NCBI GenBank assembly: GCA_018350325.1
Contig: JAEVLN010000031.1
Location: 541,472-605,471 of the forward strand
Source: Globodera rostochiensis
Lineage: Eukaryota > Nematoda > Chromadorea > Rhabditida > Heteroderidae
Length of the DNA: 64,000 nucleotides
Direction: 5' to 3'
In this document: one piece after another, positions 1,645 through 56,773 of the stretch
Position numbering within the stretch: the stretch's first letter is position 1
Layout: each line of letters begins with the position of its first letter
Position numbers and translations under genes: made by a program
Notes under the pieces: model-generated
The model's database searches: none
Told to the model about the DNA's origin: nothing
What the model saw: only the letters and a program-made list of their open reading frames with translations

Positions 1645-2144
1645 CAGGGGTGCCATCGAAAATTTTGCAAAATAAGGACAGTGAAGGTCAAAAATAAGAT
1701 TTCACTTTACAAAATGTTCAAAAATGCAATAAATTTTATTTTTTTGCATGAAATGTGAGTGAAAATTTTTCTCAACAATTCGGGCTTGGAAATTGCTCCC
1801 ATGGATTTTTAAAAAAACAATTTTTTGCGAATTTTGCTTTAGTGGGGGGGGGGGGGGGGGGGGGGAGGGGTCGGCGGTGCCGATAGGCGCCGCCGAGAAA
1901 ATTTTTTTGGAATTTTGACTCAACTTGTAATGAAAATTGGTCTAATTCGCTTCGAAATTTTCTAATTTTGAAAATTGGATCAAAATATTATGAAAATCTT
2001 CACAAAAATCGAAAAATAAGAACAAAATAAGGACGAAGGCCTCAAATAAGGACAAATCTTATAAATAAGGACATTTAACATTTATAAGATTGGCACCCCT
2101 CAAATAAGGACAAATCTTATAAATAAGGACAAATGGCACCCCTG
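1645..2144. mobile_element. hAT-like MITE, CAGGGGTGCC ends
   Basis: The ends are inverted copies: CAGGGGTGCCAT on the left and ATGGCACCCCTG on the right. They are flanked by an exact 8-bp duplication, GTTTAAAG (1637-1644 and 2145-2152). Near the right end the phrase AAATAAGGACAAAT repeats several times. The interior holds a copy of the GC hairpin (1871-1897) next to a long G run. There is no transposase frame, so it is non-autonomous. Assignment to hAT rests on the 8-bp duplication and the CAG-type ends. Confidence 0.85.
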
Positions 2145-2544
2145 GTTTAAAGCGTGAAAAAACAGTTTAGGCATTTGAATTTCCATTCTCACAATTCTCT
2201 AGGTCAACATTTTGCTGGGAGCAAATAAACAATTCAAATTTACAATAAAAATAGATTAATTCCCAAAAGTAAATGAATGCCCATCCCCCCCCCCTTTCAG
2301 GTCAACATTTGCAACCGCAAAAATCAATTCCATTTATTAGAGAATCCCAACTTTTAGTCTATAAATATGTAAGTTCATTTAAAACGGTTAAACATTCATT
2401 TATTTAAAAAAACTCTCTCATTTTAGAAACTAAAAATTTGGAAATTTTCGCTAATTTAAGTTCTTTGTTTTGTATAGTAAAAGTTTTGTGATTTGGCTTA
2501 TGTCGTCCATTTGTTAATAAGATTTCCAATTTTGTGAAATTAGC

Positions 2545-5071
2545 ATGCCAATTTTGACCGAATACGAGAGACTGGAAGAGAAAATTGGCTGGTTAAATGA
2601 GGACCAGCAGAAGCTAGTGTCCATTGATCAGTTTTTGTTGATGCAAAGTGATCAGAAAGCATTGCTGGAGAAACTTAATCGACTTGAGCAAAAGCAAACG
2701 GTGAATTCTGATTAGCTTTAAAGGGTTTGGCTGATGTCAATGCCGCCGTGTTCAAATTTACACAACTCTTTAAGCAATTCAATGAACGTGAACAGCAACT
2801 GAACAACTTTTTGGAGCAGTTTGTTGAAGAACAGAACAACAAGTTTGAAAAGGTGGGAAATATGGACAAATATGTAAATTAAGACCGGAATTTTTAATTA
2901 AATTTTAATAAAAAGTGAATAAATCAGCTGAAGGGCAGACTGAGTGCAAAGATGGTGGAGGAGTATCCGAAACAACAGCAAGTGACAATTGGTGGCAAAA
3001 TTGGAAAGAATGAGAATTCGGCGGCATTTTCAACTTCGGGGGTATGGCGGCGATGCGGTAAGAAACTTTCCTTAAATTAGAGACCGGAAACTTGGACCCA
3101 AAACCAAAAAACTTTTGGTCTAACTTTTTGTACAAAAAACCCAAAAAAATTTTTGGTTTTGGTTTTGGGTCCGGACTCTACTTAAAATATTTGGTAGCCA
3201 ACCTTTTGGATTTTGTTTGTTAGATTCTTTCCGAATCGTGGGCTCCATTCTTCTATTTATGTTCATCATTTATACGGTCCATCAAATGAATGAACAAAAA
3301 GGATTTCGTCTCAAAATGAATGGTAAATGTATTAAATGGCAATAAATTTTATTTTCAATTTTTAAGCTTTTGTCGTTGCCGAATTCGATCAACAGAAACT
3401 GTCGAATGCTAATAAATTCGCTGAAATTGAACAGCACAATGCTCTGCAACAGGAAAAGGTCGTCAAACTGCAGAAGTATCTGAAAGAACAGCAGCTGGAC
3501 ATCGTCGACTTGCAGAAGATAGTTGACACGTTGAAAGAAATTGGTAATTTTTGTCGAAAATTTTGTTTAACGTTCGGAAATTCTCTGCCTTTTAGGCATC
3601 ACTTTTAGCTTTTATATTTAGAAAAAAAAGAAAATTAAATTTCTTTAGGGCAAGTCCCTGAAAATCGATGGGATTCCGCTGCATGTCACGACAAACTCGC
3701 GCTCTCTGAGCCCGATCGATTGATTGTCCAACTTAATGGAGAGGGTAAACATTATTTTCTGTTAAAATTAGGGTAGGACGGGACCGGGACGAGTACTGAA
3801 ATGGCCAATTTTTCCCATTTTGGTACTGAAATTTTGGTCTCGATTTTTCAAAATTCCTTTAAAATCCCCTTATAATGGTCCCGGTTTTTACCAAGCATTT
3901 TTTTTTCTTGTTTTTGTCCAGTAGTCTCGGTTTTTTTTGACCGGGACCAAATTTAGTCCCGGTCCCGTCCTACCCTAGTTAAAATGATTTGATTGTTTAT
4001 GTAAAGACTCAGACAATTTTTGAATTAACTCAATTTTCAGGGTGGGGCTCTGTCCGCGCTGAAAAGCCAATGTCTAATCCTTACGGCATTGCCTACATCG
4101 AAGTGAAAATCCTAGGGGAAACAGCGTAATTTATAAATTATATAAAACATTTGCTGTGCTTTTACATATTAAAAATATTATTAAAATTAAATTTAGCGGT
4201 GTTTTGATTGGACTTGCGACAACACAAATGCCATTGGGTGAATGGGTTGGGCATTACAAAGGCACTTTTGCATACGGAAGCCATGGCGATTTTTGGGGTC
4301 ACGAGATCGACGGGTGTTGCCACACCGCCGATGGGCGTCCTGTCATCGGAGGAAAGCCCAAATTTGAGAAAGGCGACATCATTGGCTGCGGCGTCAATTT
4401 GGCAACTCGCCAAATTATTTACACAAAAAATGGACAGCGTTTGGGTGAGAAAGAATGCAAATTTTGGGGGCAATTCATTTTTAAAAAACGGCGCAAATAT
4501 CCGATCCGATTTTGACTTGTGGCGCAAATGTCCGATTTTGACTTGTGGCGCAAATGTCCAATTTTGGCTTGTGGCGCATATGTCCAATTTTGACATGTGG
4601 CGCAAATGTCCAATTTTGACTTGTGGCGCAAATGTCCAATTTTGACTTGTGGCGCAAATGTCCGATTTTGACTTGTGGCGCAAATGTCCAATTTTGGCTT
4701 GTGGCGCAAATGTCCAATTTTGACATGTGGCGCAAATGTCCAATTTTGACTTGTGGCGCAAATGTCCAATTTTGACTTGTGGCGCAAATGTCCGATTTCG
4801 ACTTGTGGCGCAAATGTCAGGACACCGTTTCTTGGTTACGGATTATGGGCGAGCCTAAATCTCCCTTCCGTTCAACCAATTCGCAAGTCCAAATGCGAAT
4901 TCAAAAATTACCGACTCTAATATTTATGTACTTGTTTTTGCAGACAACGCCAATTTGTTTGTCGATTCCGCCGCCGATTCCATCGCTGTTTTGTTTCCAT
5001 GCGTTTCGTTGGGCAATCCTGGCACCAAAATTGAAGCCAACTTTGGACCGGACTTCAAATACAAATTCTGA
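2545..5071 (+). CDS. SPRY-domain protein, membrane-anchored (SPRYSEC/RanBPM-like)
   Basis: Nine exons give about 415 residues: 2545-2700, 2724-2852, 2928-3057, 3224-3322, 3367-3543, 3649-3744, 4041-4125, 4197-4444 and 4944-5071. All junctions keep frame. Residues ~1-95 and ~172-230 are charged, Gln/Glu/Lys-rich and coiled-coil-like. A hydrophobic segment ([15 protein letters not shown]) at ~142-156 could be a membrane anchor. Residues ~232-415 are the SPRY domain, with [24 protein letters not shown] and [14 protein letters not shown] as family landmarks. In cyst nematodes this family includes secreted effectors and RanBPM-like proteins. This copy has no N-terminal signal peptide, so membrane display or an intracellular role fits better than secretion. 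The odd point is a first intron of only 23 nt (2701-2723), which could instead be a frameshift. The start is the ATG at 2545, after an in-frame stop. The domain call is firm; the effector role is not shown. Confidence 0.85.
3078..3180. mobile_element. Short MITE, TAGAGACCGG/CCGGACTCTA ends (SPRY intron 3)
   Basis: This 103-bp unit has TAGAGACCGG... and ...CCGGACTCTA ends and an interior of ACCCAAAACCAAAA-type repeats. The flanks CCTTAAAT and CTTAAAAT are only approximately duplicated. The same family recurs at 40128-41002 and 44888-45249; the latter has an exact 8-bp duplication. Confidence 0.6.
3769..3977. mobile_element. hAT-like MITE, TAGGGTAGGACGGG ends (SPRY intron 6)
   Basis: It has inverted ends TAGGGTAGGACGGGACC and GGTCCCGTCCTACCCTA, flanked by an exact 8-bp duplication GTTAAAAT (3761-3768, 3978-3985). 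The 209-bp element lies wholly inside intron 6 of the SPRY gene, between donor 3745 and acceptor 4040, so it does not alter the coding exons. Confidence 0.85.
4513..4820. repeat. 26-bp minisatellite in SPRY intron 8
   Basis: About twelve tandem copies of a 26-bp unit (TTGTGGCGCAAATGTCC followed by AATTTTGAC, with C/G and T/C variants) lie between the SPRY donor at 4445 and the acceptor ending at 4943. Long open frames on both strands here are by-products of the repeat. Confidence 0.9.
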
Positions 5072-5515: not shown

Positions 5516-5522
5516 TAATAAA

Positions 5523-5886: not shown

Positions 5887-5888
5887 TA

Positions 5889-8135: not shown

Positions 8136-8160
8136 TCGGCGGTGCCGATAGGCGCCGCCG
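8136..8160 (+). repeat. GC-rich hairpin copy (dispersed cargo family)
   Basis: The arms CGGCGGTGCC and GGCGCCGCCG pair across a GATA loop, with one G-T pair. The hairpin is followed by the family's conserved tail (gagaaaatttt, then a GACTCGATTTG phrase, then TTTGCAACC). The same module occurs at least ten more times in the window. Confidence 0.8.
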
Positions 8161-8210
8161 GAGAAAATTTTGAAATTTTCGACTCGATTTGTTAAGGATT
8201 TGCAACCAAA

Positions 8211-9268
8211 ACAAAAGTCTACAAAAGAAGCGAGATTTTCTACGAGAACGGAAAACACGGTATTCCCGTACCGTTAAATTTGAAAAATTTAAATCAATTT
8301 TGTTAACAAATATAGGTTAATCTTAAAAATATTCTTGACCAGAGCTGATCAAAACTCTTTTTTTTCTCACAAAAACAAAGCGAAAGATGTTTGGTAAAAT
8401 TCCGGAATATGGGTACCTCGCCAAATTGGACGAATTATATATAAATCGATTCCACTCTAAGTCTAGCGCGCGAATCCGTTAAAATTTTTTGGCTGAAACC
8501 ACTTTGAAGCAAGTTATGAGTCCGGGACTGAAGTGTCTTTTTCAGTGGGGACTCCGTTGTCCACTGATTAAAAAATGGGCAAAATCATTCATATAGGCTT
8601 TTAAAATACGAGTCGAACTGAATGGTACCTAATGGACGCATGGGGAAGTCAAAAGGTGGGTGTGTGAAAAGCTCCCGGGAAGTCCCGGTCCCGGTTTTTC
8701 CCAAAAGTCCCGGTCCCGTCCAACCCTAGTTTACAGTTGCCTGCGGAGAAAGGGGTTTCATTTTTACTTTTGGTACTGAAGTGTATCTATTTTACAAATT
8801 TTTCCTTAATTTTAAACCGATTCATAAACTTATTTAAATTTGGAATTTTGATTTTCTATCAACTAATTCCTAATTTTGAAAGCCAATATGACTGATTTTG
8901 CCCGTTTTTTAATCAGTGGACAACTGAGTCCCCAGTCAAAAGACACTTCAGTCCCGGGCTTATAACTTGCTTCAAAGTGGTTTCCGCCAAAAAATTTTAA
9001 CGGATTCGCGCGCTAGACTTAGAGTGGAATCGATTTATATATAATTCGTCCAATTTGGCGAAGTACCCATATTCCGGAATTTTACCAAAAATCTTTCGCT
9101 TTGTTTTTGTGAGAAAAAAATGAGTTTTGATCAGCTCTGGTCAGGAATATTTTTAAGATTAACCTATATTTGTTAACAAAATTGATTTAAATTTTTCAAA
9201 TTTAACGGTACGGGAATACCGTGTTTTCCGTTCTCGTAGAAAATCTCGCTTCTTTTGTAGACTTTTGT
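8211..9268. mobile_element. Long-arm foldback repeat
   Basis: Left arm about 8211-8606 and right arm about 8886-9268 are inverted copies almost 400 bp long (for example ACAAAAGTCTACAAAAGAAG against its complement at the right end). They are separated by ~280 bp that contains a GTCCCGG-type MITE end. No coding capacity. Target duplications were not identified. Confidence 0.75.
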
Positions 9269-10287: not shown

Positions 10288-10503
10288 TTGGAAAAATTTC
10301 AAAAATATTATTTACGTAAAAGTGAAGGATGCCCGCGGTGCCGACAGGCGCCGTCGGGGAAAAATTTTCAAAAATATGATTTACGTAAAAGTGAAGGATG
10401 CCCGCGGTGCCGACAGGCGCCGTCGGGGAAAAATTTTCAAAAATATGATTTACGTAAAAGTGAAGGATGCCCGCGGTGCCGACAGGCGCCGTCGGGGAAA
10501 TGT
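10288..10503. repeat. 69-bp tandem repeat x3, each with a GC-hairpin variant
   Basis: Three units at exactly 69-bp spacing (phrase AGGATGCCCGCGGTGCC at 10326, 10395 and 10464) each contain a variant of the GC hairpin (GCGGTGCC/GGCGCCG across GACA). Because 69 is a multiple of three, repetitive open frames appear on both strands. They are repeat by-products. Confidence 0.85.
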
Positions 10504-10649
10504 TTTCAAAAATTGGCAATAAAGGCAAGAACACGTGTCAGCTGTCAAGTGTCAGCTGTCAATTCTCCATTTTATTTGTTCTCGGGAAGTTGAAAAAAAC
10601 AAAAAAAATTTGTTGCCAAAAGCAAGAACACGTGTCAGCTGTCAATTCT

Positions 10650-13484: not shown

Positions 13485-16400
13485 TTAAAATTTCAATTCG
13501 CCCTTCCAAAGTTTGGAAAAAGTGCCGTTGATCAGCGAAAAAATTGTGCCGGCGACAGAGGGTATTGGCAGCGCCAAGAGCAAGTCGAACTCGAACGAAA
13601 CGAAAAGAGCGTGCGGCATGGCCAGGAAGAAAAGCGGCAAGACGAAGAGAGCGTAGGCTAAAACATTTGCCAATTGTTTTCTTAAAATGCTGTCAATATT
13701 ATTATTATTACTGATGGGATTTTTAGGTTAACCTTTTCAATCCTAAAATATAGTAGAATTGAACCTATTTTAGGCGTTGTCGCCGAGAAAACATTTGAAT
13801 TTTTGACTCAATTTGTTAAGGATTTGCAACCAAAATTTAAAAAATACCGCCCTTTTTTGAGGTTTTTAAAAGAATGGGATGGGTCGGCGGCGCCGATAGG
13901 CGACGCCGAAAATTTTTTTTGAAAATTAACGAATTTATTAAGAAAATTGGTCAAAAAAATCGTAAAAGTGCCTAACAATTTAAAACAAACATTACGCCAA
14001 GTGAATTATTGTCGGAATTATTTAAAAAAAATTTATTTATTTCTCTCACATTTCAGTTAATTTGTTACTGGTTAAATTTTCACAAAAAATCTTACTTTTC
14101 ACGCTATATATATGCTTTACAAAAAGTTTTTTCACTTCAAATTGATAGCTTTGGTCAAAATACTTTGCAAGTACAACCAACATTCTCATAATTGAATTTT
14201 TTAAAGTTATTATTGTTATTTTTCCCCACATTTTTTTTTACTATTTTTGCGTTGAACCTGGTTTTGGTACTTATTTTGACTTTCACCTATTTAGGTGCAC
14301 ATTTTGAGATTTCTATCCTAAAAATCCCATGCCTATTTATTAGTGCTGCACAAGAATCTCGATATCGAGTATTGACTCGAGAAAATTTTCGAGTTTTTTG
14401 GGTCTCGGGCTCGAGTCTCGCGCAGGCCTGTGCACGGTTATGAATTTTCGTAACCGTAACCGCCCGTCCTCAAACACTCATAACCGTTAACCGACCGTAA
14501 CCGCCCGTCCTAAAAAGCTCATAACCGTTAACCGCCCGTAACCGCGGCCTTTTAAAATCCCATAACCGTTAACCGTCCGCGGTTATCCGCGGTTACCCGC
14601 ATTATTTAAAAATCAATAAAGTTTTCCAGATTTCGAAAAATTACAACGAATTTTTTCCGATCATGATATGGCGTCTTTCTAAAATTAAATCAAAATTGAT
14701 GTGTATTGAACTTAACATGTGATTTTTAGCAGAAAGTTTGTCAATGAATAAATTTTTAATCTCTTTCTAACACTTTCATGATTAAAATCTAACAAAGCGT
14801 GATCAGAGTAATTTTTTTTTGTTTTTTGCGCATTAGTTGCCTAAAATATTTTTAAGAAAGGGGGTGGGGGTTCGGCGGTGCCGATAGGCGCCGCCGAGGA
14901 AAAAAAAATCAAATATTTAACGCCTTATGCTGAGAAAAATCGTCCGAATTTTAGGTAATTGAGTACTAAAATGAACTAATTATTTATTTAAATACTTAGT
15001 TAATTTTTTATAGCTAAATTTTTTGCAAAAAATAGTAAGAAAACTAAAAAGGAGGGATATTAAAATATAAATAAAAAAATAAACAGCGGAAGGGGCTAGA
15101 ACCTAGACCAAATAAAATCAGTCTAAGAGTTTCACCAGTTAGCCATAGGACAGACCGTATCGGCTGGTGAAATGAGAATAAAAAGTGAAAGAAATTATAA
15201 AGGCAAATCGTTCAACCCTCAGCAATCAATAAAACAACGGATGCTACGGTTAACCGCGGTTTTAGTGGTCATAACCGTTAACCGACCGTAACCGCCCGTC
15301 CTCAAAATCTCATAACCGTTAACCGCGGTTAGCCGCGGGTATCCGCGGTTAGCCGCGGTTACGGTTAACCGTGCACAGGCCTGGTCTCGCGTATTTAGTC
15401 TCGATTTCGAGACTTTTTTACACCCCTAAAGATGGCCTTTTTGTTGAAAATTCATTACAGAATTCTAAAGATGGTGGCCCCCATTTTTCAAAAAAAAAAT
15501 AAAATACCGTGTTTTTAAAATTTTGGGTGAAAATCTCTTAACAAATCGAGTCAAAAATTCAAAATTTTCTCGGCGGCGCCTATCGGCACCGCCGACCCCC
15601 CCTGAAGTAAAGCAGAATTCTCAAAAAAAAAAAAAATTTGCATTTGGGGCTTTTATTGGCCATTCTGTGTTAACTTTGAAGTTATCTTTTTTTAACAAAG
15701 ATTATTAAAATCTTCAAAAAATTTCTCGATTCCTCCCATTCCTAAAAAGCTTCAAAACATACCACCAGAGGAGTTTCACTTTTTGAAAAGTTTTTGGGGA
15801 TTTTCTATTGTGAATCTGAGTTGTTCGGCCAAGTCGAACACGACGAGAAATGCACAAATTTTTTTTTTCGCAAATTACAAAATCGTCTTCGCTCTTGAGG
15901 TTGAGGATGATGATAATAGATTTTAAAAATTTATTTAAAATTTTTATGAAAAAAATTTTGATTAGGAGCAACACTAATTTTGAGCCAAAATTGATTTTTG
16001 AAGACTCAATCCTGCAAGCCTGCGCAGGATCCCGCAAATTCTAAATGCAGGATTAACAGGATTGCAGGATTTGCAGGATTAATCCTGCAGGATCCGGTCC
16101 TGCAAAAAATTTTGAATTCCAATCCTGCAACAGGATCCGCAAATTTGATTTTGCCGGTCTCTAAAAAATACAACCCCTAAAAACAAAAATTTTCGGGGAA
16201 AATTGCTTAAAATGCAATAAAACCCAAAAATACGCCCCTAAAAATCGACTTTTTTAATTCAGGTAAGGTCAAATCTTTAAAACCGATTATTTTTAGTCAA
16301 AATCAAGATAAAAATCATTAGATTTGGTCTAAAATTGAATCTTAGAAAATTATGACATTTTTGAAGTAATTAAAAATTTTACGAAAAAAAAGTCTCGATA

Positions 16401-17020
16401 TCGAGTATCGACTCGAGAAAAGTCTCGGGTTTTTTGGGTCTCGGGTTCGGGCCCGAGTCTCGAGGTAAAGTATCGGGCTCGGGCTCGAGTATCGAGAGAT
16501 TTTGAGTCTCGTGCAGCACTACTATTTATGTATTATATGAGAAAATGAAATAAATTAATAATAATCCATTCACTCATTTTATACAACCGACCTGAAAATG
16601 CAATCAGTCCATAAGGAAGCATTTTGTGCTCATTGATGAAGTCAATGTAAAACCAATAGGGCAAATAAACGGCTAAATTAAATGTTAAATCTTTTTTTTT
16701 GTTGTTATTTTTAAATACCGGATAAAACCAAAGAGGGCAAGTAAACGCTGTGGCTATGATAGCCCAATTGGACTTTAATGTCCCAACAAATGTCTAACAG
16801 ATCATTAAACATTAGCATGAAAAGGTAGAAAACCGACTGAACAAATTAATTATTTGTATTAAAAGTCGCGGCCTTTTTCCTTTTACAATAATTCCCGAAT
16901 CTATTGGAGCTGTTGGCGAGCACGGTTGCTGAATTGTTGTAATTTATTAATGAATTATTATTATTTTAATTTTGCTAAGTTTGAATTTTACCTTAGATGG
17001 AAAAAGATAAACCAGACAAA
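13485..17020 (-). CDS. Multi-membrane-span protein, 3' exons (unidentified)
   Basis: On the minus strand five exons splice with matching phases: 17020-16992, 16928-16887, 16836-16719, 16672-16592 and 13657-13485, ending at TAA 13487-13485. The product is at least ~145 residues and strongly hydrophobic, with segments such as SVFYLFMLMFNDLL, VYLPYWFYIDF, YALFVLPLFFLAMPHALFV and LLLALPIPSVAGTIF. This suggests four or more membrane spans. I do not recognise the family; the 5' end would lie under or beyond the satellite array. The last intron (16591-13658, ~2.9 kb) contains a MITE that itself carries another MITE. Phase agreement across every junction is the main evidence; no homolog was identified. 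Confidence 0.5.
14341..16521. mobile_element. hAT-like MITE, TAGTGCTGCAC ends, with nested insertion
   Basis: The ends TAGTGCTGCAC and GTGCAGCACTA are inverted and flanked by an exact 8-bp duplication CTATTTAT (14333-14340, 16522-16529). A second element (14423-15383) is inserted close to its left end. The interior holds a GC hairpin (15570-15595) and a GCAGGATT-rich segment (about 16010-16140). There is no transposase frame. Confidence 0.85.
14423..15383 (+). mobile_element. hAT-like element, CAGGCCTGTGCACGG ends (copy 1, nested)
   Basis: This 961-bp element starts CAGGCCTGTGCACGGTTA and ends with its inverted copy. The exact 8-bp duplication GTCTCGCG (14415-14422, 15384-15391) lies inside the older MITE at 14341-16521. 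The ends are built of repeated ATAACCGTTAACCG / CGTAACCGCCCGTCC phrases. Inside are a GC hairpin (14872-14897) and, on the minus strand, a tRNA-like module with A box TGGCTAACTGG and B box GGTTCTAGCCC (shown by comparison with copies 2-4). It has no coding capacity. Confidence 0.9.
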
Positions 17021-20000
17021 CTGCAATCAAAGACGAACCAATCAAAAATTATGAATTGGGTCTAAATTTTACCATTTTGTTCGCCGAATTTGAAATCTCT
17101 TGGCAGTATTTTATATATTCCTATTCATGGCCTGTTATTTTGGAAAATGTTAGAATCTAGTCGCTAAAAGATATACTGTTGAAAAGCTCTTGCAATTATC
17201 TCTTGAATTACACGGCATTTTCTAAAAATATTTCACCATTCTGAACATCATAAATTTATGTTTCCTTATTTTTAATTCCAGCAAAGCGCATTTATTTACG
17301 CTTAATCAGATGAGCTACCAAAATAGCTGACCATGAAATATAAAGAAATATTCTGATAATTCTTTGCTATGTTGAATATTTATCAATAACGTTTAATTTT
17401 ACAAAATTCTACGGCGCTTTGCTCGATTAATATGTGATTAAATCTTTGCATTTTTGGCCATAAATTTTTTATACTTTTCCCTACAGACTGCCGAATCTTT
17501 TACCATTTTGTGCGCCGAATTTGAAATCTCTTGGCAGTATTTTATATATTCCTATTCATGGCCTGTTATTTTGGAAAATGTTAGAATCTAGTCGCTAAAA
17601 GATATACTGTTGAAAAGCTCTTGCAATTATCTCTTGAATTTCACAGCATTTTCTAAAAATATTTCACCATTCTGAACATCATAAATTTATGTTTCCTTAT
17701 TTTTGATTCCAGCAAAGCGCATTTATTTACGCTTAATCAGATGAGCTACCAAAATAGCTGACCATGAAATATAAAGAAATATTCTGATATTTCTTTGCTA
17801 TGTTGAATATTTATCAATAATGTTTAATTTTATAAAATTCTACGGCGCTTTGCTCGATAAATATATGATTAAATCTTTGCATTTTTGGCGATAAATTTTT
17901 TATACTTTTCCCTACAGACTGCCGAATCTTTTACCATTTTGTTCGCCGAATTTGAAATCTTTTGGCAGTATTTTATATATTCCTATTCATGGCCTGTTAT
18001 TTTGGAAAATGTTAGAATCTAGTCGCTAAAAGATATACTGTTGAAAAGCTCTTGCAATTATCTCTTGAATTACACGGCATTTTCTAAAAATATTTCACCA
18101 TTCTGAACATCATAAATTTATGTTTCCTTATTTTTAATTCCAGCAAAGCGCATTTATTTACGCTTAATCAGATGAGCTACCAAAATAGCTGACCATGAAA
18201 TATAAAGAAATATTCTGATAATTCTTTGCTATGTTGAATATTTATCAATAATGTTTAATTTTATAAAATTCTACGGCGCTTTGCTCGATAAATATGTGAT
18301 TAAATCTTTGCATTTTTGGCCAAAACTTTTGTATACTTTTCCCTACAGACTTCCGAATCTTTTACCATTTTGTTCGCCGAATTTGAAATCTCTTGGCAGT
18401 ATTTTATATATTCCTATTCATGGCCTGTTATTTTGGAAAATGTTAGAATCTAGTCGCTAAAAGATATACTGTTGAAAAGCTCTTGCAATTATCTCTTGAA
18501 TTACACGGCATTTTCTAAAAATATTTCACCATTCTGAACATCATAAATTTATGTTTCCTTATTTTTGATTCCAGCAAAGCGCATTTATTTACGCTTAATC
18601 AGATGAGCTACCAAAATAGCTGACCATGAAATATAAAGAAATATTCTGATATTCTTTGCTATGTTGAATATTTATCAATAATGTTTAATTTTACAAAATT
18701 CTACGGCGCTTTGCTCGATTAATATGTGATTAAATCTTTGCATTTTTGGCCATAAATTTTGTATACTTTTCCCTACAGACTGCCGAATCTTTTACCATTT
18801 TGTGCGCCGAATTTGAAATCTCTTGGCAGTATTTTATATATTCCTATTCATGGCCTGTTATTTTGGAAAATGTTAGAATCTAGTCGCTAAAAGATATACT
18901 GTTGAAAAGCTCTTGCAATTATCTCTTGAATTACACAGCATTTTCTAAAAATATTTCACCATTCTGAACATCATAAATTTATGTTTCCTTATTTTTGATT
19001 CCAGCAAAGCGCATTTATTTACGCTTAATCAGATGAGCTACCAAAATAGCTGACCATGAAATATAAAGAAATATTCTGATAATTCTTTGCTATGTTGAAT
19101 ATTTAACAATAATGTTTAATTTTACAAAATTCGACGGCGCTTTGCTCGATTAATATGTGATTAAATCTTTGCATTTTTGGCCATAAATTTTTTATACATT
19201 TCCCTACAGACTGCCGAATCTTTTACCATTTTGTTCGCCGAATTTGAAATCTCTTGGCAGTATTTTATATATTCCTATTCATGGCCTGTTATTTTGGAAA
19301 ATGTTAGAATCTAGTCGCTAAAAGATATACTGTTGAAAAGCTCTTGCAATTATCTCTTGAATTACAAGGCATTTTCTAAAAATATTACACCATTCTGAAC
19401 ATCATAAATTTATGTTTCCTTATTTTTGATTCCAGCAAAGCGCATTTATTTACGCTTAATCAGATGAGCTACCAAAATAGCTGACCATGAAATATAAAGA
19501 AATATTCTGATATTTCTTTGCTATGTTGAATATTTATCAATAATGTTTAATTTTACAAAATTCTACGGCGCTTTGCTCGATAAATATGTGATTAAATCTT
19601 TGCATTTTTGGCCATAACTTTTGTATACTTTTCCCTACAGACTGCCGAATCTTTTACCATTTTGTTCGCCGAATTTGAAATCTCTTGGCAGTATTTTATA
19701 TATTCCTATTCATGGCCTGTTATTTTGGAAAATGTTAGAATCTAGTCGCTAAAATATATACTGTTGAAAAGCTCTTGCAATTATCTCTTGAATTACAAGG
19801 CATTTTCTAAAAATATTACACCATTCTGAACATCATAAATTTATGTTTCCTTATTTTTGATTCCAGCAAAGCGCATTTATTTACGCTTAATCAGATGAGC
19901 TACCAAAATAGCTGACCATGAAATATAAAGAAATATTCTGATATTTCTTTGCTATGTTGAATATTTAACAATAATGTTTAATTTTACAAAATTCGACGGC

Positions 20001-21316
20001 GCTTTGCTCGATTAATATGTGATTAAATCTTTGCATTTTTGGCCATAAATTTTTTATACATTTCCCTACAGACTGCCGAATCTTTTACCATTTTGTTCGC
20101 CGAATTTGAAATCTCTTGGCAGTATTTTATATATTCCTATTCATGGCCTGTTATTTTGGAAAATGTTAGAATCTAGTCGCTAAAAGATATACTGTTGAAA
20201 AGCTCTTGCAATTATCTCTTGAATTACAAGGCATTTTCTAAAAATATTACACCATTCTGAACATCATAAATTTATGTTTCCTTATTTTTGATTCCAGCAA
20301 AGCGCATTTATTTACGCTTAATCAGATGAGCTACCAAAATAGCTGACCATGAAATATAAAGAAATATTCTGATAATTCTTTGCTATGTTGAATATTTATC
20401 AATAATGTTTAATTTTACAAAATTCTACGGTGCTTTGCTCGATAAATATGTGATTAAATCTTTGCATTTTTGGCCATAACTTTTGTATACTTTTCCCTAC
20501 AGACTGCCGAATCTTTTACCATTTTGTTCGCCGAATTTGAAATCTCTTGGCAGTATTTTATATATTCCTATTCATGGCCGTTATTTTGGAAAATGTTAGA
20601 ATCTAGTCGCTAAAAGATATACTGTTGAAAAGCTCTTGCAATTATCTCTTGAATTACACAGCATTTTCTAAAAATATTTCACCATTCTGAACATCATAAA
20701 TTTATGTTTCCTTATTTTTGATTCCAGCAAAGCGCATTTATTTACGCTTAATCAGATGAGCTACCAAAATAGCTGACCATGAAATATAAAGAAATATTCT
20801 GATAATTCTTTGCTATGTTGAATATTTATCAATAATGTTTAATTTTACAAAATTCTACGGCGCTTTGCTCGATAAATATGTGATTAAATCTTTGCAGGCC
20901 ATAACTTTTGTATACTTTTCCCTACAGACTGCCGAATCTTTTACCATTTTGTTCGCCGAATTTGAAATCTCTTGGCAGTATTTTATATATTCCTATTCAT
21001 GGCCTGTTATTTTGGAAAATGTTAGAATCTAGTCGCTAAAAGATATACTGTTGAAAAGCTCTTGCAATTATCTCTTGAATTACACAGCATTTTCTAAAAA
21101 TATTTCACCATTCTGAACATCATAAATTTATGTTTCCTTATTTTTGATTCCAGCAAAGCGCATTTATTTACGCTTAATCAGATGAGCTACCAAAATAGCT
21201 GACCATGAAATATAAAGAAATATTCTGATAATTCTTTGCTATGTTGAATATTTATCAATAATGTTTAATTTTACAAAATTCGACTGCGCTTTGCTCGATT
21301 AATATGTGATTAAATC

Positions 21317-22278
21317 CAGGCCTGTGCACGGTTAACCGTAACCGCGGCTAACCGCGGATACCCGCGGTTACGCGCGGTTAACGGTTATGAGATTTTGAGG
21401 ACGGGCGGTTACGGTCGGTTAACGGTTATGACCACTAAAACCGCGGTTAACCGTAGCATCCGTTGTTTTATTGATTGCTGAGGGTTGAACGATTTGCCTT
21501 TATAATTTCTTTCACTTTTTGTTCTCATTTCACCAGCCTATAAGATCTGTCCTATGGCTAACTGGTGAAACTCTTAGACTGATTTTATTTGGTCTAGGTT
21601 CTAGCCCCTTCCGCTGTTTATTTTTTTATTTATATTTTCATATCCCTCCTTTTTAGTTTTCTTACTATTTTTTGCAAAAAATTTAGCTATAAAAAATTAA
21701 CTAAGTATTTAAATAAATAATTAGTTCATTTTAGTACTCAATTACCTAAAATTCGGACGATTTTTCTCAGCATAAGGCGTTAAATATTTGATTTTTTTTT
21801 TCCTCGGCGGCGCCTATCGGCACCGCCGAACCCCCACCTCCTTTCTTAAAAATATTTTAGGCAACTAATGCGCAAAAAACAAAAAAAAATTACTCTGATC
21901 ACGCTTTGTTAGATTTTAATCATGAAAGTGTTAGAAAGAGATTAAAAATTTATTCATTGACAAACTTTCTGCTAAAAATCACATGTTAAGTTCAATACAC
22001 ATCAATTTTGATTTAATTTTAGAAAGACGCCATATCATGATCGGAAAAAATTCGTTGTAATTTTTCGAAATCTGGAAAACTTTATTGATTTTTAAATAAT
22101 GCGGATAACCGCGGATAACCGCGGACGGTTAACGGTTATGGGATTTTAAAAGGCCGCGGTTACGGGCGGTTAACGGTTATGAGCTTTTTAGGACGGGCGG
22201 TTACGGTCGGTTAACGGTTATGAGTGTTTGAGGACGGGCGGTTACGGTTACGAAAATTCATAACCGTGCACAGGCCTG
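21317..22278 (-). mobile_element. hAT-like element, CAGGCCTG ends (copy 2, in satellite)
   Basis: A near-identical reverse-oriented copy of 14423-15383, flanked by ATTAAATC on both sides (21309-21316, 22279-22286). Removing the element plus one duplicate restores the exact 431-bp monomer spacing (20943 to 22344 is 431 + 970). Pol III-like boxes lie at 21555-21565 (TGGCTAACTGG) and 21597-21607 (GGTTCTAGCCC), and the hairpin at 21804-21829. Confidence 0.95.
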
Positions 22279-23140
22279 ATTAAATCTTTGCATTTTTGGC
22301 CATAAATTTTTTATACTTTTCCCTACAGACTGCCGAATCTTTTACCATTTTGTTCGCCGAATTTGAAATCTCTTGGCAGTATTTTATATATTCCTATTCA
22401 TGGCCTGTTATTTTGGAAAATGTTAGAATCTAGTCGCTAAAAGATATACTGTTGAAAAGCTCTTGCAATTATCTCTTGAATTACACGGCATTTTCTAAAA
22501 ATATTTCACCATTCTGAACATCATAAATTTATGTTTCCTTATTTTTGATTCCAGCAAAGCGCATTTATTTACGCTTAATCAGATGAGCTACCAAAATAGC
22601 TGACCATGAAATATAAAGAAATATTCTGATAATTCTTTGCTATGTTGAATATTTATCAATAATGTTTAATTTTACAAAATTCTACGGCGCTTTGCTCGAT
22701 AAATATGTGATTAAATCTTTGCAGGCCATAACTTTTGTATACTTTTCCCTACAGACTGCCGAATCTTTTACCATTTTGTTCGCCGAATTTGAAATCTCTT
22801 GGCAGTATTTTATATATTCCTATTCATGGCCTGTTATTTTGGAAAATGTTAGAATCTAGTCGCTAAAAGATATACTGTTGAAAAGCTCTTGCAATTATCT
22901 CTTGAACACGGCATTTTCTAAAAATATTTCACCATTCTGAACATCATAAATTTATGTTTCCTTATTTTTGATTCCAGCAAAGCGCATTTATTTACGCTTA
23001 ATCAGATGAGCTACCAAAATAGCTGACCATGAAATATAAAGAAATATTCTGATAATTCTTTGCTATGTTGAATATTTATCAATAATGTTTAATTTTACAA
23101 AATTCGACTGCGCTTTGCTCGATTAATATGTGATTAAATC

Positions 23141-24101
23141 CAGGCCTGTGCACGGTTAACCGTAACCGCGGCTAACCGCGGATACCCGCGGTTACGCGCG
23201 GTTAACGGTTATGAGATTTTGAGGACGGGCGGTTACGGTCGGTTAACGGTTATGACCACTAAAACCGCGGTTAACCGTAGCATCCGTTGTTTTATTGATT
23301 GCTGAGGGTTGAACGATTTGCCTTTATAATTTCTTTCACTTTTTGTTCTCATTTCACCAGCCTATAAGATCTGTCCTATGGCTAACTGGTGAAACTCTTA
23401 GACTGATTTTATTTGGTCTAGGTTCTAGCCCCTTCCGCTGTTTATTTTTTTATTTATACTTTAATATACCTCCTTTTTAGTTTTCTTACTATTTTTTGCA
23501 AAAAATTTAGCTATAAAAAATTAACTAAGTATTTAAATAAATAATTAGTTCATTTTAGTACTCAATTACCTAAAATTCGGACGATTTTTCTCAGCATAAG
23601 GCGTTAAATATTTGATTTTTTTTTCCTCGGCGGCGCCTATCGGCACCGCCGAACCCCCACCTCCTTTCTTAAAAATATTTTAGGCAACTAATGTGCAAAA
23701 AACAAAAAAAAATTACTCTGATCACGCTTTGTTAGATTTTAATCATGAAAGTGTTAGAAAGAGATTAAAAATTTATTCATTGACAAACTTTCTGCTAAAA
23801 ATCACATGTTAAGTTCAATACAAATCAATTTTGATTTAATTTTAGAAAGACGCCATATCATGATCGGAAAAAATTCGTTGTAATTTTTCGAAATCTGGAA
23901 AACTTTATTGATTTTTAAATAATGCGGGTAACCGCGGATAACCGCGGACGGTTAACGGTTATGGGATTTTAAAAGGCCGCGGTTACGGGCGGTTAACGGT
24001 TATGAGCTTTTTAGGACGGGCGGTTACGGTCGGTTAACGGTTATGAGTGTTTGAGGACGGGCGGTTACGGTTACGAAAATTCATAACCGTGCACAGGCCT
24101 G
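23141..24101 (-). mobile_element. hAT-like element, CAGGCCTG ends (copy 3, in satellite)
   Basis: Same element, same orientation and same target site ATTAAATC (23133-23140, 24102-24109) as copy 2, 1824 bp downstream. The shared insertion point shows that this is duplication of an already-occupied satellite unit and not a new insertion. Hairpin at 23627-23652. Confidence 0.95.
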
Positions 24102-24959
24102 ATTAAATCTTTGCATTTTTGGCCATAAATTTTTTATACTTTTCCCTACAGACTGCCGAATCTTTTACCATTTTGTTCGCCGAATTTGAAATCTCTTGGC
24201 AGTATTTTATATATTCCTATTCATGGCCTGTTATTTTGGAAAATGTTAGAATCTAGTCGCTAAAAGATATACTGTTGAAAAGCTCTTGCAATTATCTCTT
24301 GAATTACAAGGCATTTTCTAAAAATATTTCACCATTCTGAACATCATAAATTTATGTTTCCTTATTTTTGATTCCAGCAAAGCGCATTTATTTACGCTTA
24401 ATCAGATGAGCTACCAAAATAGCTGACCATGAAATATAAAGAAATATTCTGATAATTCTTTGCTATGTTGAATATTTATCAATAATGTTTAATTTTACAA
24501 AATTCTACGGCGCTTTGCTCGATAAATATGTGATTAAATCTTTGCAGGCCATAACTTTTGTATACTTTTCCCTACAGACTGCCGAATCTTTTACCATTTT
24601 GTTCGCCGAATTTGAAATCTCTTGGCAGTATTTTATATATTCCTATTCATGGCCTGTTATTTTGGAAAATGTTAGAATCTAGTCGCTAAAAGATATACTG
24701 TTGAAAAGCTCTTGCAATTATCTCTTGAACACGGCATTTTCTAAAAATATTTCACCATTCTGAACATCATAAATTTATGTTTCCTTATTTTTGATTCCAG
24801 CAAAGCGCATTTATTTACGCTTAATCAGATGAGCTACCAAAATAGCTGACCATGAAATATAAAGAAATATTCTGATAATTCTTTGCTATGTTGAATATTT
24901 ATCATGTTTAATTTTACAAAATTCGACTGCGCTTTGCTCGATTAATATGTGATTAAATC

Positions 24960-27885: not shown

Positions 27886-28798
27886 TAGGGTTGAGCGGGA
27901 CCGGTACCGGGACCGGGACGGGATTTCCCGGTTTTTTCAGGTCCCGGTCCCGGTCGGGACGGGACTTTTTAAAATCTGAAAGTCCCGGTCCCGGTTTTTT
28001 GGTCCCGCCGGGACCGGGACCAACCGGGACTAAATTTACACCCCTAATGATGGCATCATCGAGCGACAATTTCAATCTTTTTTACAAGTGCTCCCCAAAG
28101 AACTCGGTGTCTTAGTGGTTTGTCTTCCGCCAAGTCAAATGTTTCTGTCGGGTTAGAGTCCGCTTGAGTACAAACATTTATTTATTCTTTTTCCTCTACT
28201 CACATGATTTTCTTCCCCTAATAATAAAAATTTTTAATTTTAAATATATATATTTTTTTTAATTAAGCTAAAACAAGAACTTTTGAAATAAATTAATCAC
28301 ATCTTTCTGAATTTTTGCTTCAATTTCCTTAACAAAGATTGCCAATTTTTGTAAAAATTTCTCCGGCGGCGCCTGTCGGCACCGCCGGTTATCCTTCACT
28401 CTTACGTAAACCAGTTTTTTTCTCTAAATTTCGAAGCAAAATACATAATTTTGCTAAAATTTTGATGAAATTCTTTAACAAAATTGAGTCAAATTTCAAA
28501 AATTTTTCTCGGCGGCGCCTATCGGCACCGCCTACCCCCACCCTCCCTAAAAGTAAATCTCAAAAAATGATACGATAAAATTGAAGTTAAAGACAATGAG
28601 GAAGATATTTTGAATAACAAAAAATTTTTTTGTTTTACTATTGAACATTACAAAAAAAATTTTCCCTTGAAAAGTCCCGGTTAGTCCCGGTCCCGGTACC
28701 GGTCCCGGTTGAAAATGTTGGTCCCGGTCCCGGGTTTTCTGGTCCCGGGAAGTCCCGGTCCCGGTTTTTCCCAAAAGTCCCGGTCCCGCTCAACCCTA
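27886..28798. mobile_element. hAT-like MITE, TAGGGTTGAGCGGGACC ends
   Basis: The ends TAGGGTTGAGCGGGACC and GGTCCCGCTCAACCCTA are inverted, with an exact 8-bp duplication TCTAAAAC (27878-27885, 28799-28806). The interior carries a tRNA-like stretch (about 28105-28165) and two GC hairpins (28363-28388 and 28509-28533). A closely related interior recurs in the element at 40128-41002, which has different ends. Confidence 0.88.
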
Positions 28799-28806: not shown

Positions 28807-29277
28807 CACGTAACAAGTATTAGGAGGGCTCTCAAGTCTGAGTTTTAGCCGAATTGTGGCTTTTTGTCAGGCTAAGAGGCAAAAAGTGACAAATTCGGCG
28901 CCTAACGGTGAAAGTATGTGTACTCGAATGATCTCGAAGGGTTGAAGCTAACATTAGTTAAACCTTTGCGAGTGGACAAATTCAAAAAGTTATGATCAGA
29001 GAAGCCCCAAAATCGGGATTTTTAAATTTATCAAGTGTTAGGTCATAAACTTTTTGATAGCTTCAACTTTTGGACATCTTTCGCGTGGCTTTACAATTTT
29101 CTGAATAGGTTAGAGCAAGTTATTGCCTTGCTTGATGGTGGGACTCCTCTAAAGCAAGAATCTGAAAAATTCTTGCGCGGAAGCAACTACCTATGTATCG
29201 AAAAATATAAAAATAGGCGCTTAAATATTAGGTGAGAAAAAAAGTGCCAAAATTGGCTCTAAAATCAAGTTAAGATG
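28807..29277. other. No gene recognised
   Basis: A 66-codon plus-strand frame (29035-29235) and surrounding AT-rich sequence show no splice context or domain. Confidence 0.35.
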
Positions 29278-30065: not shown

Positions 30066-30189
30066 ACTGAACGTACCGCACCGTGTTTTTGAATGTTTTT
30101 AGGCCAAAAGATGCCGAAAACATTTTGAAATTGAAAAACCTTCGAATTCGGGTCCGGGGTTCGAAATCGATTGAAATTTAAGTTTTTGA

Positions 30190-39585: not shown

Positions 39586-40118
39586 GGCTGACCGTTGTGA
39601 CCAACATTAAATTTAATCTGATCATTTCCTGATCAAATCCGTCTTTGATCAAAATGGACGGATCGTTTCTTGATCAGGAATGGTAATTTTGAACACATTC
39701 AGTGGGCTGACCCCGGTGACCAAATTAAATTTAATCTGATCATTTCCTGATCGAATCCGTCTTTGATCAAAAAGGACGGATCGTTTCTTGATAAGGAATA
39801 ATCATTTTGAACCAACATTAAATTTAATCTGATCACTTTCTGATCAAATCCGTCTTTGATCAAAATGGACGGATCGTTTCTTGATCAGGAATGGTAATTT
39901 TGAACACATTCAGTGGGCTGACCCCGGTGACCAACATTAAATTTAATCTGATCATTTCCTGATCGAAGCCGTCTTTGATCAAAAAGGACGGATTGTTTCT
40001 TGATAAGGAATAATCATTTTGAACCAACATTAAATTTAATCTGATAATTTCCTGATCAAATCCGTCTTTGATGCAAAATGGACGGATCGTTTCTTGATCA
40101 GGAATGATCATTTTAACT
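39586..40118. repeat. ~209-bp higher-order tandem repeat with palindromic core
   Basis: Units alternate ~117 and ~92 bp, all containing AACATTAAATTTAATCTGAT and an imperfect palindrome (TTCCTGATCAAATCCGTC ... GGACGGATCGTTTCTTGATCAGGAA). The 209-bp period is seen between GGGCTGACCCCGGTGACC at 39703 and 39912. The tract abuts the broken end of the cyclase remnant. Confidence 0.85.
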
Positions 40119-40127
40119 AGAGTCCGG

Positions 40128-41002
40128 ACCAAAACCCAAAACCAAAACATTTTTGGGTTGTTTTGTACAAAATTTTCTACCAATATTATTGACCAAATTT
40201 TGTTTGGTCCAAGCCCATTTTTGTACAAAACTTTTGGGTGTCTTCCAGTTGAATTTACACCCCTAAAGATGACATCATTGAGTGACAATTTCAATCTTTT
40301 TAACAAGAATGCCCCAAGAAATTTATGGCTTAGTGGTTGTCTTTCGGTAGCTCTTATCTTATGTGTTGGGGTTCAAACCCGCTTGAGTGCAAGCAGCTAT
40401 TTATTGTTTTTCCTTATTCAAATGCGCTTCCCCGCATTAATACAAATTTTTAATTTTTGCTTCTATTTCCTTAACAAAGATTGCCAGTTTTTAAAAAATT
40501 CCCCCGGCGGCGCCTGTCGGCACCGCCCGACCTTTCACATTCCTAAAAAGTAGATACGGAATTTAATGACCGGATTCGGAAAAAAACTTATATTGTTTTT
40601 CTTGCCCACTGAAGACAATGCTGAAAGTTTTGAGAAAAAAATGTTTTATATCCCCACCCGACCCCTGACATGGTCAACCCCGGCCTCCACGACCCCGACT
40701 AGGGGACGGTTTGGTTTGTAGTTGGCGTGATTGACGTGACATTGGTCAGAAAAAGCATTGAATAAATTTTATTTAAAAAAATCGTAAATTTAGGCTTTTT
40801 GTTATGTTTTACTAAAAACTTTTGGGTTTTGTACAAATTTTGGGTTTTGCCAGACCAAAAGAAACCAAAACCAAAATAAACCCAATATTATTGACCAAAT
40901 TTTGTTTGGTCCAAATTGGAGCCCAACCCAAAAGAAACCAAAACCAAAATAAACCCAATATTATTGACCAAATTTTGTTTGGGTCCAACTTTCCGGTCTC
41001 TA
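40128..41002. mobile_element. Composite MITE, TAGAGTCCGG ends, tRNA-like and hairpin cargo
   Basis: It starts TAGAGTCCGGACC and ends GGTCTCTA with ACCAAAACC-type sub-terminal repeats, the same end type as 44888-45249. Flanks do not form a clear duplication. The interior (about 40250-40540) matches that of 27886-28798: an A-box-like TGGCTTAGTGG (40326-40336), a clean B box GGTTCAAACCC (40370-40380) and a GC hairpin (40504-40529). Confidence 0.7.
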
Positions 41003-45389: not shown

Positions 45390-46000
45390 AAAAGTCGTGG
45401 CAAAGATCGATCCTGGAGGAATACTCCTCTCCGATTTCCCTTTTCTTCACAAATTAAACCCGCTCAGAGAGCGTCGCCCCCGCGGCCGATCCCCAAAGGG
45501 ACCAGCCGACGGTCCTCAACGCCGGGCGATCACCAAAACTTGCGACGCCCCCGGCGAGCTTCACGCTCAGGGGACGACGCTTTTGCTCTTCATCGCGGGT
45601 GCTTTGGCGAGCAAGGTGGAACCCCCACCGGGAAACCGTACTACAGAAATGATCCTGAGAAGTACAGTCTCAACATTGGCTGTGTTTGGCTGCCTATGAA
45701 TGGGCAGGGCAATGCAAATGTTCGATGGGTTGCAAACAGAGGAAGGGAAGGATTGGAAAATGCGTAGTCTCTCGTCGTTTACTCTAACATCCTTTCTTCC
45801 ATTGTGTCTAACCATTGTTTTTCTGCACTCTTTTCTCCGTTCTCTCTCTCTCTACTGCTGCTGTCGTTGCATTGTGATGGCCTAATTAAGAGAATTTGTG
45901 TCTGCCCAAGCATTGACGTCGAGAGAAAGTGGCCAAAAGAGGCAAAACGAATGTTTTTTCGTTGGTTCACACAAATTCAGAACATTATCAAATAGCTCAT
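45390..46000. other. GC-rich block of unclear nature
   Basis: 45450-45620 is GC-rich and could be an exon or a fragment of something else. One plus frame (45540-45767) contains GKPYYRNDPEKYSLN, but two other frames are also open over parts and no splice pair stands out. A CT-rich run lies at 45830-45860. Confidence 0.25.
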
Positions 46001-52799: not shown

Positions 52800-52905
52800 C
52801 ACATGCTTCAAAAAAAATACCGTATTTTTAAAATTTTGGTTGCAAATCTCGTAACGAATTGAGTCAAATTTTCAATATTTTCTCGGGACCGCCGACCCCC
52901 ACCTC
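52800..52905 (-). repeat. Degenerate copy of the hairpin-module tail
   Basis: The phrase GGTTGCAAATCTCGTAACGAATTGAGTC leads to a shortened hairpin (CTCGGGACCGCCGACCCCC). It is a decayed member of the dispersed module. Confidence 0.6.
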
Positions 52906-55065: not shown

Positions 55066-55067
55066 AA

Positions 55068-55390: not shown

Positions 55391-55540
55391 GAGTTGAGCA
55401 GGGTCGGTATTGAAATTAATTCCCCTAAATTGGAACAGAACGGGATTGAGACTGAAATTAGAAATCGGACCGTGCCCGGGTTTTCCAGGGTCCGGTAGCC
55501 CGGTGCCGGGTTTTCAGAAAGCCCCAGGCAGAACTGAATG
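55391..55540. mobile_element. One-ended TAGAGTTGAGCAGGGTC MITE relic
   Basis: It starts like the TAGGGTTGAGCGGG family and contains CCGGGTTTTCC phrases. The right end and duplication are missing. Confidence 0.5.
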
Positions 55541-55826
55541 AGGAAGCATGTGCAGGCAGATAAAGCACCAACACTAGCCGAAACTGATCAAACCCGATAT
55601 GTCAAAAAAGGTCAGATTTAAAAAAACAATTTTTAATATTTGGGATGGTTTAATGAATAGGTATGTCACATCCCCTAGGAGGTATGACTTGTAACTTGTT
55701 TTGTTTCCAAACTTGTTTTTGGAGGTAGAAGAAAATTTGAAGGGTTTCCAAATCTGTTTTAACAATTTCAAAATCCCTTTTTTTCTCACGTCCGGGCTCT
55801 GTTTGTATCGAAAACAGCCTAATGAC

Positions 55827-56773
55827 TAGAGCTGTTCGAGACTTGGAATTTACCGAGACTCGAGAGTCGAGACCGAGACCGAGAAATAACACCGAGACTC
55901 GAGACCGAGACCGAGAAATGACCCCGAGACTCGAGACCGAGATCGAGACCCAAAAAAACCGAGAAATTTGTCGAAAATTTTTTATTTTAAGCTCCAAAAT
56001 TTTAAATAAATAGTTTTACACTTCGCGACATATTTAAATTCCCATTTTTATTTCTGGAACGCTTTTTGTCCGATGGTCCAGCCCATCGGAACCGCCGGGG
56101 AAAGAATTTTTAAAAAAAAGTTCAATTTAGGAGTGTATTTTCAAGGGGTTTTATTGCATTTTTTTTGTTTGAAATTTTCAAAAAAAAATTTTTTCGCGAA
56201 TTCTGCTTAACTTTTGGTGGGGGGTCGGCGGTGCCGATAGGCGCCGCCGAGAAAATTTTGAATTTTAGACTCTATTTGTGAAGAGATTTGCTACCAAATT
56301 TAGAATGCGGTAATTTTTTGAAGCTTTAGTGATTAATTAGGAAATATGCTTAGTTTGCAAAAAAATTTACCATTTTATAAGGGTTACTGGGTGATGTTTT
56401 TTGTTGTTCGACTAAGAATCAGTAAAAAGGAGTATATAATTATCAATTTAAATGCAGAAAAATTCATTTCACCAGCGGGACTAGAAACTTATAGAGTAAG
56501 GAACACAGAATTTAACCACTGCGCCATACGCTCAGTCTATGCCGAAAGTTGACAAAGTATTAAAGGATTTCTAAAATCATTGTGTATTTTCAAATCTTTC
56601 AAACACATACTTTTCTTTAATGACTCTCACCAAAAATGCCATCTTTACCAGTGCAAAAAAGTCTCGTTTTCCGAGACTAAAAACCCGAGAGTCGAGACCG
56701 AGACCGAGACCCAAAAAAAAACCGAGAAATTTCTCGGTTCGAGACTCGAGACCGAGACTCTCGAACAGCTCTA
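55827..56773. mobile_element. hAT-like MITE, TAGAGCTGTTCGAGA ends
   Basis: The ends TAGAGCTGTTCGAGA and TCTCGAACAGCTCTA flank GAGACCGAGACC-type sub-terminal repeats, with an exact 8-bp duplication CTAATGAC (55819-55826, 56774-56781). The cargo is a GC hairpin (56224-56251) and, on the minus strand, a tRNA-like module with A box TGGCGCAGTGG (56516-56526) and B box GTTTCTAGTCCC (56477-56488). This is the same order as in the other cargo-bearing elements. Confidence 0.9.

Follow-up and report, generated by a model that had tools for sequence, protein, structure and literature searches.

A short GC-rich hairpin with an AT-rich tail recurs along a 64,000-nt stretch of the Globodera rostochiensis genome (assembly GCA_018350325.1, contig JAEVLN010000031.1, positions 541472-605471; hereafter the window), inside miniature inverted-repeat transposable elements (MITEs) with differing ends. 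The elements have hAT-type ends and 8-bp target-site duplications (TSDs); some are nested in one another, some retain the ends of another family in their interior, and interiors are common to elements whose ends cannot be aligned. We propose, with a probability of about 0.5, that interiors move between hAT MITE families by nested insertion followed by loss of the inner ends. An earlier note on the window had suggested that either MITE families exchanged cargo or a separate mobile unit inserted into them. Exchange is indicated by the nests, the leftover inner ends, common stretches resembling family F1 and a partial mismatch between tails and ends.

The hairpin has the stem TCGGCGGTGCC / GGCGCCGCCGA, a GATA loop and one T·G pair. 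The unit, or module, consists of a variable-length G-run just upstream, to which the core extends, then TCGGCGGTGCC-GATA-GGCGCCGCCGA, followed by GAAAATTTT..GAATTTTTGACTCAATTTGTTAAG.. until about +75. Paired units are frequent, with a spacing of about 122 bp, and the second unit has its own tail type (..GATGACAATTTGTTAAGAAAATTGG..). RNA folding indicated that the + strand stem pairs fully (-24.0 kcal/mol) and that the opposite strand reaches -19.6 kcal/mol with a C·A mismatch. In the searched genome (92.6 Mb, 80 contigs), exact arms with a 2-8-nt loop gave 1150+1173 matches and the 24-mer at up to 3 mismatches gave 2555+2606 = 5161, a density of about 1 per 18 kb; both reversed patterns gave 0. 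The exact nematode SL1 leader was found in 122 copies (63+59). No match to the hairpin was found in viral contigs. Chance similarity or a low-complexity artefact would be conceivable for AT-rich, weakly alignable tails and simple G-runs, but is refuted by the 5161 hairpins against 0 for the reversed pattern and by the Markov controls described below, and we consider it hardly credible. A search for an Rfam family corresponding to the module gave no gathering-level match in the window, and lax thresholds returned weak matches only.

Host elements were identified as exact 8-bp direct repeats around inverted ends (14 bases, at most 3 mismatches, CA or TA start) in a sample of 320,562 bases made of the window and loci L001-L029, L031, L032 and L034-L040, minus the overlapping L005 and L008. 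Loci L001-L028 were chosen for hairpins; L039 and L040 were chosen for a hAT domain and not for the hairpin. The search returned 47 candidates with terminal inverted repeats (TIRs) and TSDs, compared with 0, 0 and 1 in three order-1 Markov controls, which were used because reversed sequence retains both features and is useless as a control. Five candidates were excluded: three located within palindromes (window 8295, 8408 and 57200), a low-complexity match (L014 7890) and the composite 21317-24101. Clustering of the terminal 120 bp assigned the remaining 42 elements to 24 terminal families, 17 of which contain the hairpin, a share biased upward by the choice of loci. In the window alone, which was not selected for hairpins, 7/11 complete elements and 4/8 terminal families contain it; of the 11 hairpins, 8 are inside complete elements, which span 12.2% of the window.

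The exact 8-bp TSD and the CA or TA start of all 42 elements were requirements of the search. Beyond this, 21/24 families start with CAGGG or TAGNG, the exceptions being F4 (CAGGC), F12 (CAGGA) and F13 (CATAG); some F1 members start with CAAGG. The TSDs vary in sequence and, at 8 bp, are not the TTAA of piggyBac. Both subterminal regions contain family-specific short words, such as CGGGACC (F5), CGAGAC (F3) and CGGTTA (F4). Exact TIRs of two families were counted genome-wide, TAGGGTTGAGCGGGACCGG occurring 74+74 times and CARGGVCGTAGCCAGG 170+171 times. The terminal 120 bp of the 24 families are mutually unalignable, yet 699 between-family alignments cross the hairpin; the copies do not trace to a single family with ends differing by point mutation. 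The earlier count of at least six unrelated ends was therefore an underestimate, given 17 hairpin families, and the word unrelated was only partly right, since 21/24 families share a type of start and the same inner-boundary motif recurs in six kinds of end array. The element starts proposed at 1645, 14341, 14423, 27886 and 55827 were exact, each with a perfect 8-bp TSD, and the one placed at 40128 is really at 40118.

We infer that different hAT transposases move the different families. The hAT dimerisation domain PF05699 accounts for 100 among the matches listed in the genome, and 6 of 10 sampled PF05699 loci (L032, L034-L038) lie in TIR and 8-bp-TSD elements of 1.2-1.8 kb (TAGTGTTCGGC.., TAGAGCCCGGTCGAG..). 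None of these six recognised transposase-domain elements contains the hairpin, and the idea that the module is part of autonomous hATs was rejected. A good hairpin lies within about 1.1 kb of 2/10 PF05699 loci (L030 and L033), and two more have poor matches only; the L033 hairpin belongs to a distinct MITE-like region containing GGCAT words.

The features of the window that bear on the hairpin are as follows.

1645..2144, + strand: hAT-type MITE of family F8 (CAGGGGTGCC, TSD GTTTAAAG), found by the TIR and TSD search and end clustering; holds the hairpin at 1871.
1871..1896, + strand: hairpin, 26-nt form, exact.
8136..8161, + strand: hairpin with exact core; left flank like F23 (L018), right side a palindrome from +75.
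8211-9268: palindrome with 331-bp arms, 98% complementary, beginning at the +75 end of the 8136 module.
10290..10513, + strand: 69-bp tandem array of 3.3 copies, with diverged hairpins at 10332, 10401 and 10470.
13884..13909, + strand: hairpin of the second unit in a decayed pair, with 2 mismatches; the first unit, at about 13787, is half deleted.
14341..16521, no strand assigned: hAT-type element of family F3 (TAGTGCTGCAC, TSD CTATTTAT) with a nested F4 inside.
14423..15383, + strand: hAT-type MITE of family F4 (CAGGCCTGTGCACGG, TSD GTCTCGCG), nested within 14341-16521.
14872..14897, + strand: exact hairpin within F4.
15570..15595, - strand: exact hairpin within F3.
21317..22278, - strand: hAT-type MITE of family F4 (TSD ATTAAATC), in a 431-bp satellite.
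21804..21829, - strand: exact hairpin within F4.
23141..24101, - strand: hAT-type MITE of family F4, an amplified copy of 21317-22278 with the same TSD.
23627..23652, - strand: exact hairpin within F4.
27886..28798, - strand: hAT-type MITE of family F5 (TAGGGTTGAGCGGG, TSD TCTAAAAC) with two hairpin units.
28035..28055, + strand: inner-boundary motif TTTACACCCCTAATGATGGCA.
28108..28161, + strand: tRNA-like block with A and B boxes, on the opposite strand to the hairpins.
28363..28388, - strand: hairpin unit 2, GACA loop, C-G closing pair.
28509..28534, - strand: hairpin unit 1, 1 mismatch.
40118..41002, - strand: decayed hAT-type element (TAGAGTCCGGA), whose TIRs have diverged and whose TSD agrees at 6/8 positions; boundary motif at 40254, tRNA-like block at 40326-40380.
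40504..40529, - strand: hairpin, GACA loop, 2 edits relative to the 24-nt consensus.
52881..52903, - strand: half-deleted hairpin with a recognisable tail.
55827..56773, + strand: hAT-type MITE of the F3 group (TAGAGCTGTTCGAG, TSD CTAATGAC).
56225..56250, + strand: exact hairpin.

All 11 hairpins that the earlier note had listed are present, two of them with starts moved slightly (13882 to 13884 and 56224 to 56225). Those at 1871, 8136, 13884, 14872 and 56225 are on the + strand and the other six on the - strand. They correspond to about 9 independent loci, since 21804 and 23627 copy one amplified locus and 28363 and 28509 share one element. The GATA loop attributed to all holds for most, the loop being GACA at 28363 and 40504. 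The weaker forms were correctly recognised: 10331-10500 is the 69-bp array with its three diverged hairpins, and about half a hairpin is left at 52881. The conserved tail exists as a consensus, from which the tail of the F4 units (14872 and the related 21804 and 23627) departs by 21/49 mismatches to the profile consensus. The 431-bp satellite is present in about 10 copies of 97% identity at 17067-24959; an F4 MITE inserted into it and was then amplified together with it, with more satellite blocks at 22298-23140 and 24121-24959 and the beginning of a third F4 copy at 24960.

Three nests were found: F4 in F3 in the window, F22 in F7 (L017) and F18 in F1 (L004). In L004, F18 was inserted into a hairpin, and its TSD GTGCCGAT is the cut hairpin sequence. 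Leftover F1 ends were detected inside hosts of families F3 (L027), F14 (L040) and F18 (L004), and a leftover F3 end inside an F15 host (L001); where the distance was measured, these inner ends lie within about 200 bp of the hairpin. In L027 and L040 the F1-like stretch around the hairpin begins with the first or second base of F1, in L015 with base 43. It is shorter in other hosts, and only the core is found in F4 and F19. The mechanism suggested by these arrangements is that hAT MITEs insert into one another and that a composite can then move by its outer ends. The inner ends would decay or be deleted, leaving the interior and its hairpin in a family with new ends, and many rounds of nesting and loss would place one interior in many terminal families. 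Template switching during gap repair perhaps assists this route. That nesting with inner-end loss is the main route, and that composites later transposed, is what we infer from the intermediates.

Other observations bear on this exchange, several of them against it. Tails were compared with the two unit types kept apart, after adding four elements without a perfect TSD, assigned to a family by their flanks, and leaving out four units belonging to neither type. Type-1 tails (16 units, 11 families) had an identity of 0.82 within families (6 pairs) and 0.735 between them (114 pairs), a difference reached by 81/2000 label permutations; among the 9 units with a family mate, the nearest tail was in another family for 7, in favour of exchange, and in the same family for 2, these two being units of two nearly identical F5 copies. 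Type-2 tails (15 units, 8 families) had an identity of 0.78 within (22 pairs) versus 0.655 between families (83 pairs), reached by 3/2000 permutations, and the nearest tail was in the same family for 6/9 and in another family for 3/9. Tails therefore track the terminal family in part, and the comparison by unit type weakens the case for exchange. Close tails were also found across families, with identities of 0.91 for both units of L010 (F1) to L026 (F24) and 0.91 for L014 (F17) to L018 (F23). Leftover inner ends were seen in four hairpin hosts only, and the others were without them. Nests alone do not prove that a composite has transposed, the 17/24 hairpin families are inflated by the hairpin-chosen loci, and a motif found at the inner edge of the subterminal arrays, TTTACACCCCTAAAGATGGCA, fits replacement of the ends equally well.

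Such replacement forms the first alternative. One ancestral hAT MITE would have passed on its interior (boundary motif, tRNA-like block and hairpin units) vertically, and the subterminal arrays and inner TIR would have been replaced repeatedly, perhaps following shifts in transposase binding. The motif and its near forms (at most 4 substitutions) gave 9 matches compared with 0, 0 and 0 in controls, including sites at window 28035-28055, 40254 and 56637, L015 3381, L016 4269 and L040 5837, and it marks the inner edge of six kinds of array with different words (F5, F3, F20, the 40118 element, L016 and L040). In agreement with vertical inheritance, tRNA-like blocks lie antisense to the module across 6 kinds of element, the CAGGG or TAGNG start is common to 21/24 families, and type-2 tails go with the terminal family. 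This alternative gained weight from the type-separated tail comparison. However, type-1 tails mostly depart from the ends, the tRNA-like block is absent from F1 and several other families, and the nests and leftover inner ends are explicit. We rate end replacement as rather unlikely taken by itself; it and nesting may act together.

The tRNA-like blocks also bear on the second alternative, in which a separate mobile unit, such as a tRNA-derived short interspersed element (SINE) with the hairpin and a C-run as its 3' end, inserts into MITEs. Pairs of A and B boxes (at most 1 mismatch each) were found 18 times, compared with 0, 0 and 1 in controls. Thirteen are in module-type elements: F4 or its kin (6, one without module), F5 (3), the 40118 element, F15, F22 and F3. 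The remaining 5 are tRNA genes or look-alikes, namely window 59880 and 60164 (tRNA-Ser according to ARAGORN) and putative ones in L002, L015 and L022; the two window genes are tRNA-Ser(GGA) genes at 59873-59945 and 60157-60229. Individual blocks were located at window 15093-15145, 28108-28161 and 40326-40380, L001 1923, L017 5060 and L027 5172. All 12 A/B pairs with an adjoining module are antisense to it, though they come from 6 kinds of element only. The left edge is fairly sharp, 562 of the 699 between-family alignments stopping no more than 20 bp upstream of the hairpin, in the region of the G-run; this run disturbs alignment where the left edges cluster.

The right edges of the same alignments are diffuse (+15 to +230), which does not fit a unit with its own ends. 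Judged by eye, homology runs upstream past the tRNA-like start towards the boundary motif. Runs of T follow the inspected B boxes, making it unlikely that an RNA polymerase III (Pol III) transcript of the block would reach the hairpin. Many module families have no tRNA-like block, and the Rfam tRNA model was silent in those present. Outside complete elements, 25/25 hairpin copies match the MITE set somewhere, about 15 of them well beyond the core and about 10 only near the core or distantly, with imperfect core masking; in this partial test, no copy with its own ends was seen among the 25. An independent mobile unit appears quite improbable on this evidence. The blocks themselves are possibly internal Pol III promoters or SINE remains.

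Within the module, the hairpin is better conserved than the tail. A unit profile trained on other loci and applied to the window, L039 and L040 gave 28 rows, of which 23 were kept after removal of two F4 copies that had arisen by amplification, two repeats of the 69-bp array and one wrong-strand match. In the 17/23 units with a full-length hairpin, mismatches affected 22/408 hairpin sites (5.4%) compared with 176/757 tail sites (23.2%), a contrast to which hairpin-based detection adds some bias. Part of the tail divergence lies between unit types and subfamilies, so the contrast means that lineages altered their tails and not the hairpin. A tail-only profile (E<=1e-3) applied to the same three sequences found 15 unique units, 10 with a full-length hairpin (5 edits in 240), 3 with the hairpin partly deleted and 2 without it. 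On contig C1, inspected by eye, 20 exact 16-base tails were accompanied by the exact 24-mer in 8 cases and by intact arms with an altered loop in 2, and an exact tail stood beside only 8 of about 99 exact hairpins among the matches listed. Where hairpins were lost, arm deletion was commoner than many substitutions.

Base pairing was followed genome-wide at one stem pair, which was G-C in 2323 copies, A·C in 38, G·T in 74 and A-T in 43. The 43 double changes compare with 38 x 74 / 2323 = 1.2 expected if the two changes were independent. They may go back to a small number of ancestral events that were then copied many times, because 27 of the 43 copies have the GACA loop in common (8 have GATA). 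The closing pair of the 17 full hairpins was T-A in 9, C-G in 5, T·G in 2 and T·T in 1. Perfecting the T·G pair of the stem was rare (C-G at 79 and T-A at 51 sites versus 2323), about as rare as other single changes. This rarity suggests, without proving it, that a perfect DNA palindrome is not favoured and that the sequence itself, or a G·U pair in + strand RNA, is retained.

The hairpin probably persists because the amplifying elements are under constraint. We tentatively hypothesize, and hold it to be doubtful, that it works as a portable functional element and makes any MITE that carries it more successful, families with different ends converging by its capture. It could then act as a structured nucleic acid on the G·U/T·G strand or, on an equally doubtful footing, as a sequence-specific site for a host factor.

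Other features of the window include three inverted-repeat elements that lack the hairpin and have tandem words in their arms (29276-30071, TTTCAGTGCC; 57067-57655, CCACTGCCGAGTTGTC; 60598-61775, CGAATCCCCC). A U3 small nucleolar RNA gene is located at 45459-45671. The open frame 4078-4512, which we take to resemble a SPRY domain, adjoins a 26-bp tandem array at 4505-4818.

MITE families are usually delimited by their ends and regarded as internal deletion products of a single transposon. The elements described here indicate that the interiors evolve at least in part separately from the ends, and do so extensively within one genome. How MITEs originate and succeed becomes testable here, with hairpin copies in the thousands, numerous terminal families and intermediates that can be seen. 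Should selection act on the hairpin, non-autonomous transposons would have a cis element for their success that does not depend on the transposase-specific ends.

Parts of this organisation are found in known systems. MITEs of hAT type with subterminal repeats, for example those of Ac/Ds, have 8-bp TSDs, YAGNG ends, repeated words and no transposase; unlike them, the present elements have a common interior across families with different words. Helitrons, which lack TIRs and TSDs, carry a short GC-rich palindrome at the 3' end of non-autonomous elements, whereas this hairpin is internal, in elements with TIRs and 8-bp TSDs, and no CTRR end stands by it in the flanks judged by eye. No description of this hairpin was found in the literature searched, which is not proof of absence. 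A survey of transposable elements in plant-parasitic nematodes names hAT, and MITEs are unmentioned in the sections drawn on here (PMC11118728).

The mariner MITE MER6/MER6A contains the V highly conserved domain of SINEs (PMC6887750). As in the present module, a short conserved domain of other origin was spread by a MITE burst; MER6, as far as the cited portion of that paper goes, is one MITE lineage with a known SINE source, whereas the module has many terminal families and an unproven SINE source (PMC6887750).

The closest parallel is provided by the coral CMITEs (Acropora), in which interiors are more conserved than TIRs across families and for which the authors proposed a role of the interior in transposition (PMC2872659). 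The earlier note had known of no named element with this organisation, and CMITEs are the same in kind, combining a conserved interior with different TIRs (PMC2872659). Both systems have MITE families with different TIRs and a common interior (75 bases in CMITEs), tandem arrays, and new elements formed by insertion of one into another (PMC2872659). A conserved interior with differing TIRs is thus already in print. According to the cited excerpts, CMITEs and MER6 both lack this hairpin and these ends, and neither matches the number of families (PMC2872659, PMC6887750). CMITEs are piggyBac-like (TTAA), about 100 bp long and belong to 6 families (PMC2872659). The elements of G. rostochiensis, in contrast, are hAT-type with an 8-bp TSD, measure 285 bp to over 1 kb and comprise 17 module families in the sample; a GC-rich hairpin is their best conserved part, tRNA-like blocks are present in some interiors, and their nests are visible.

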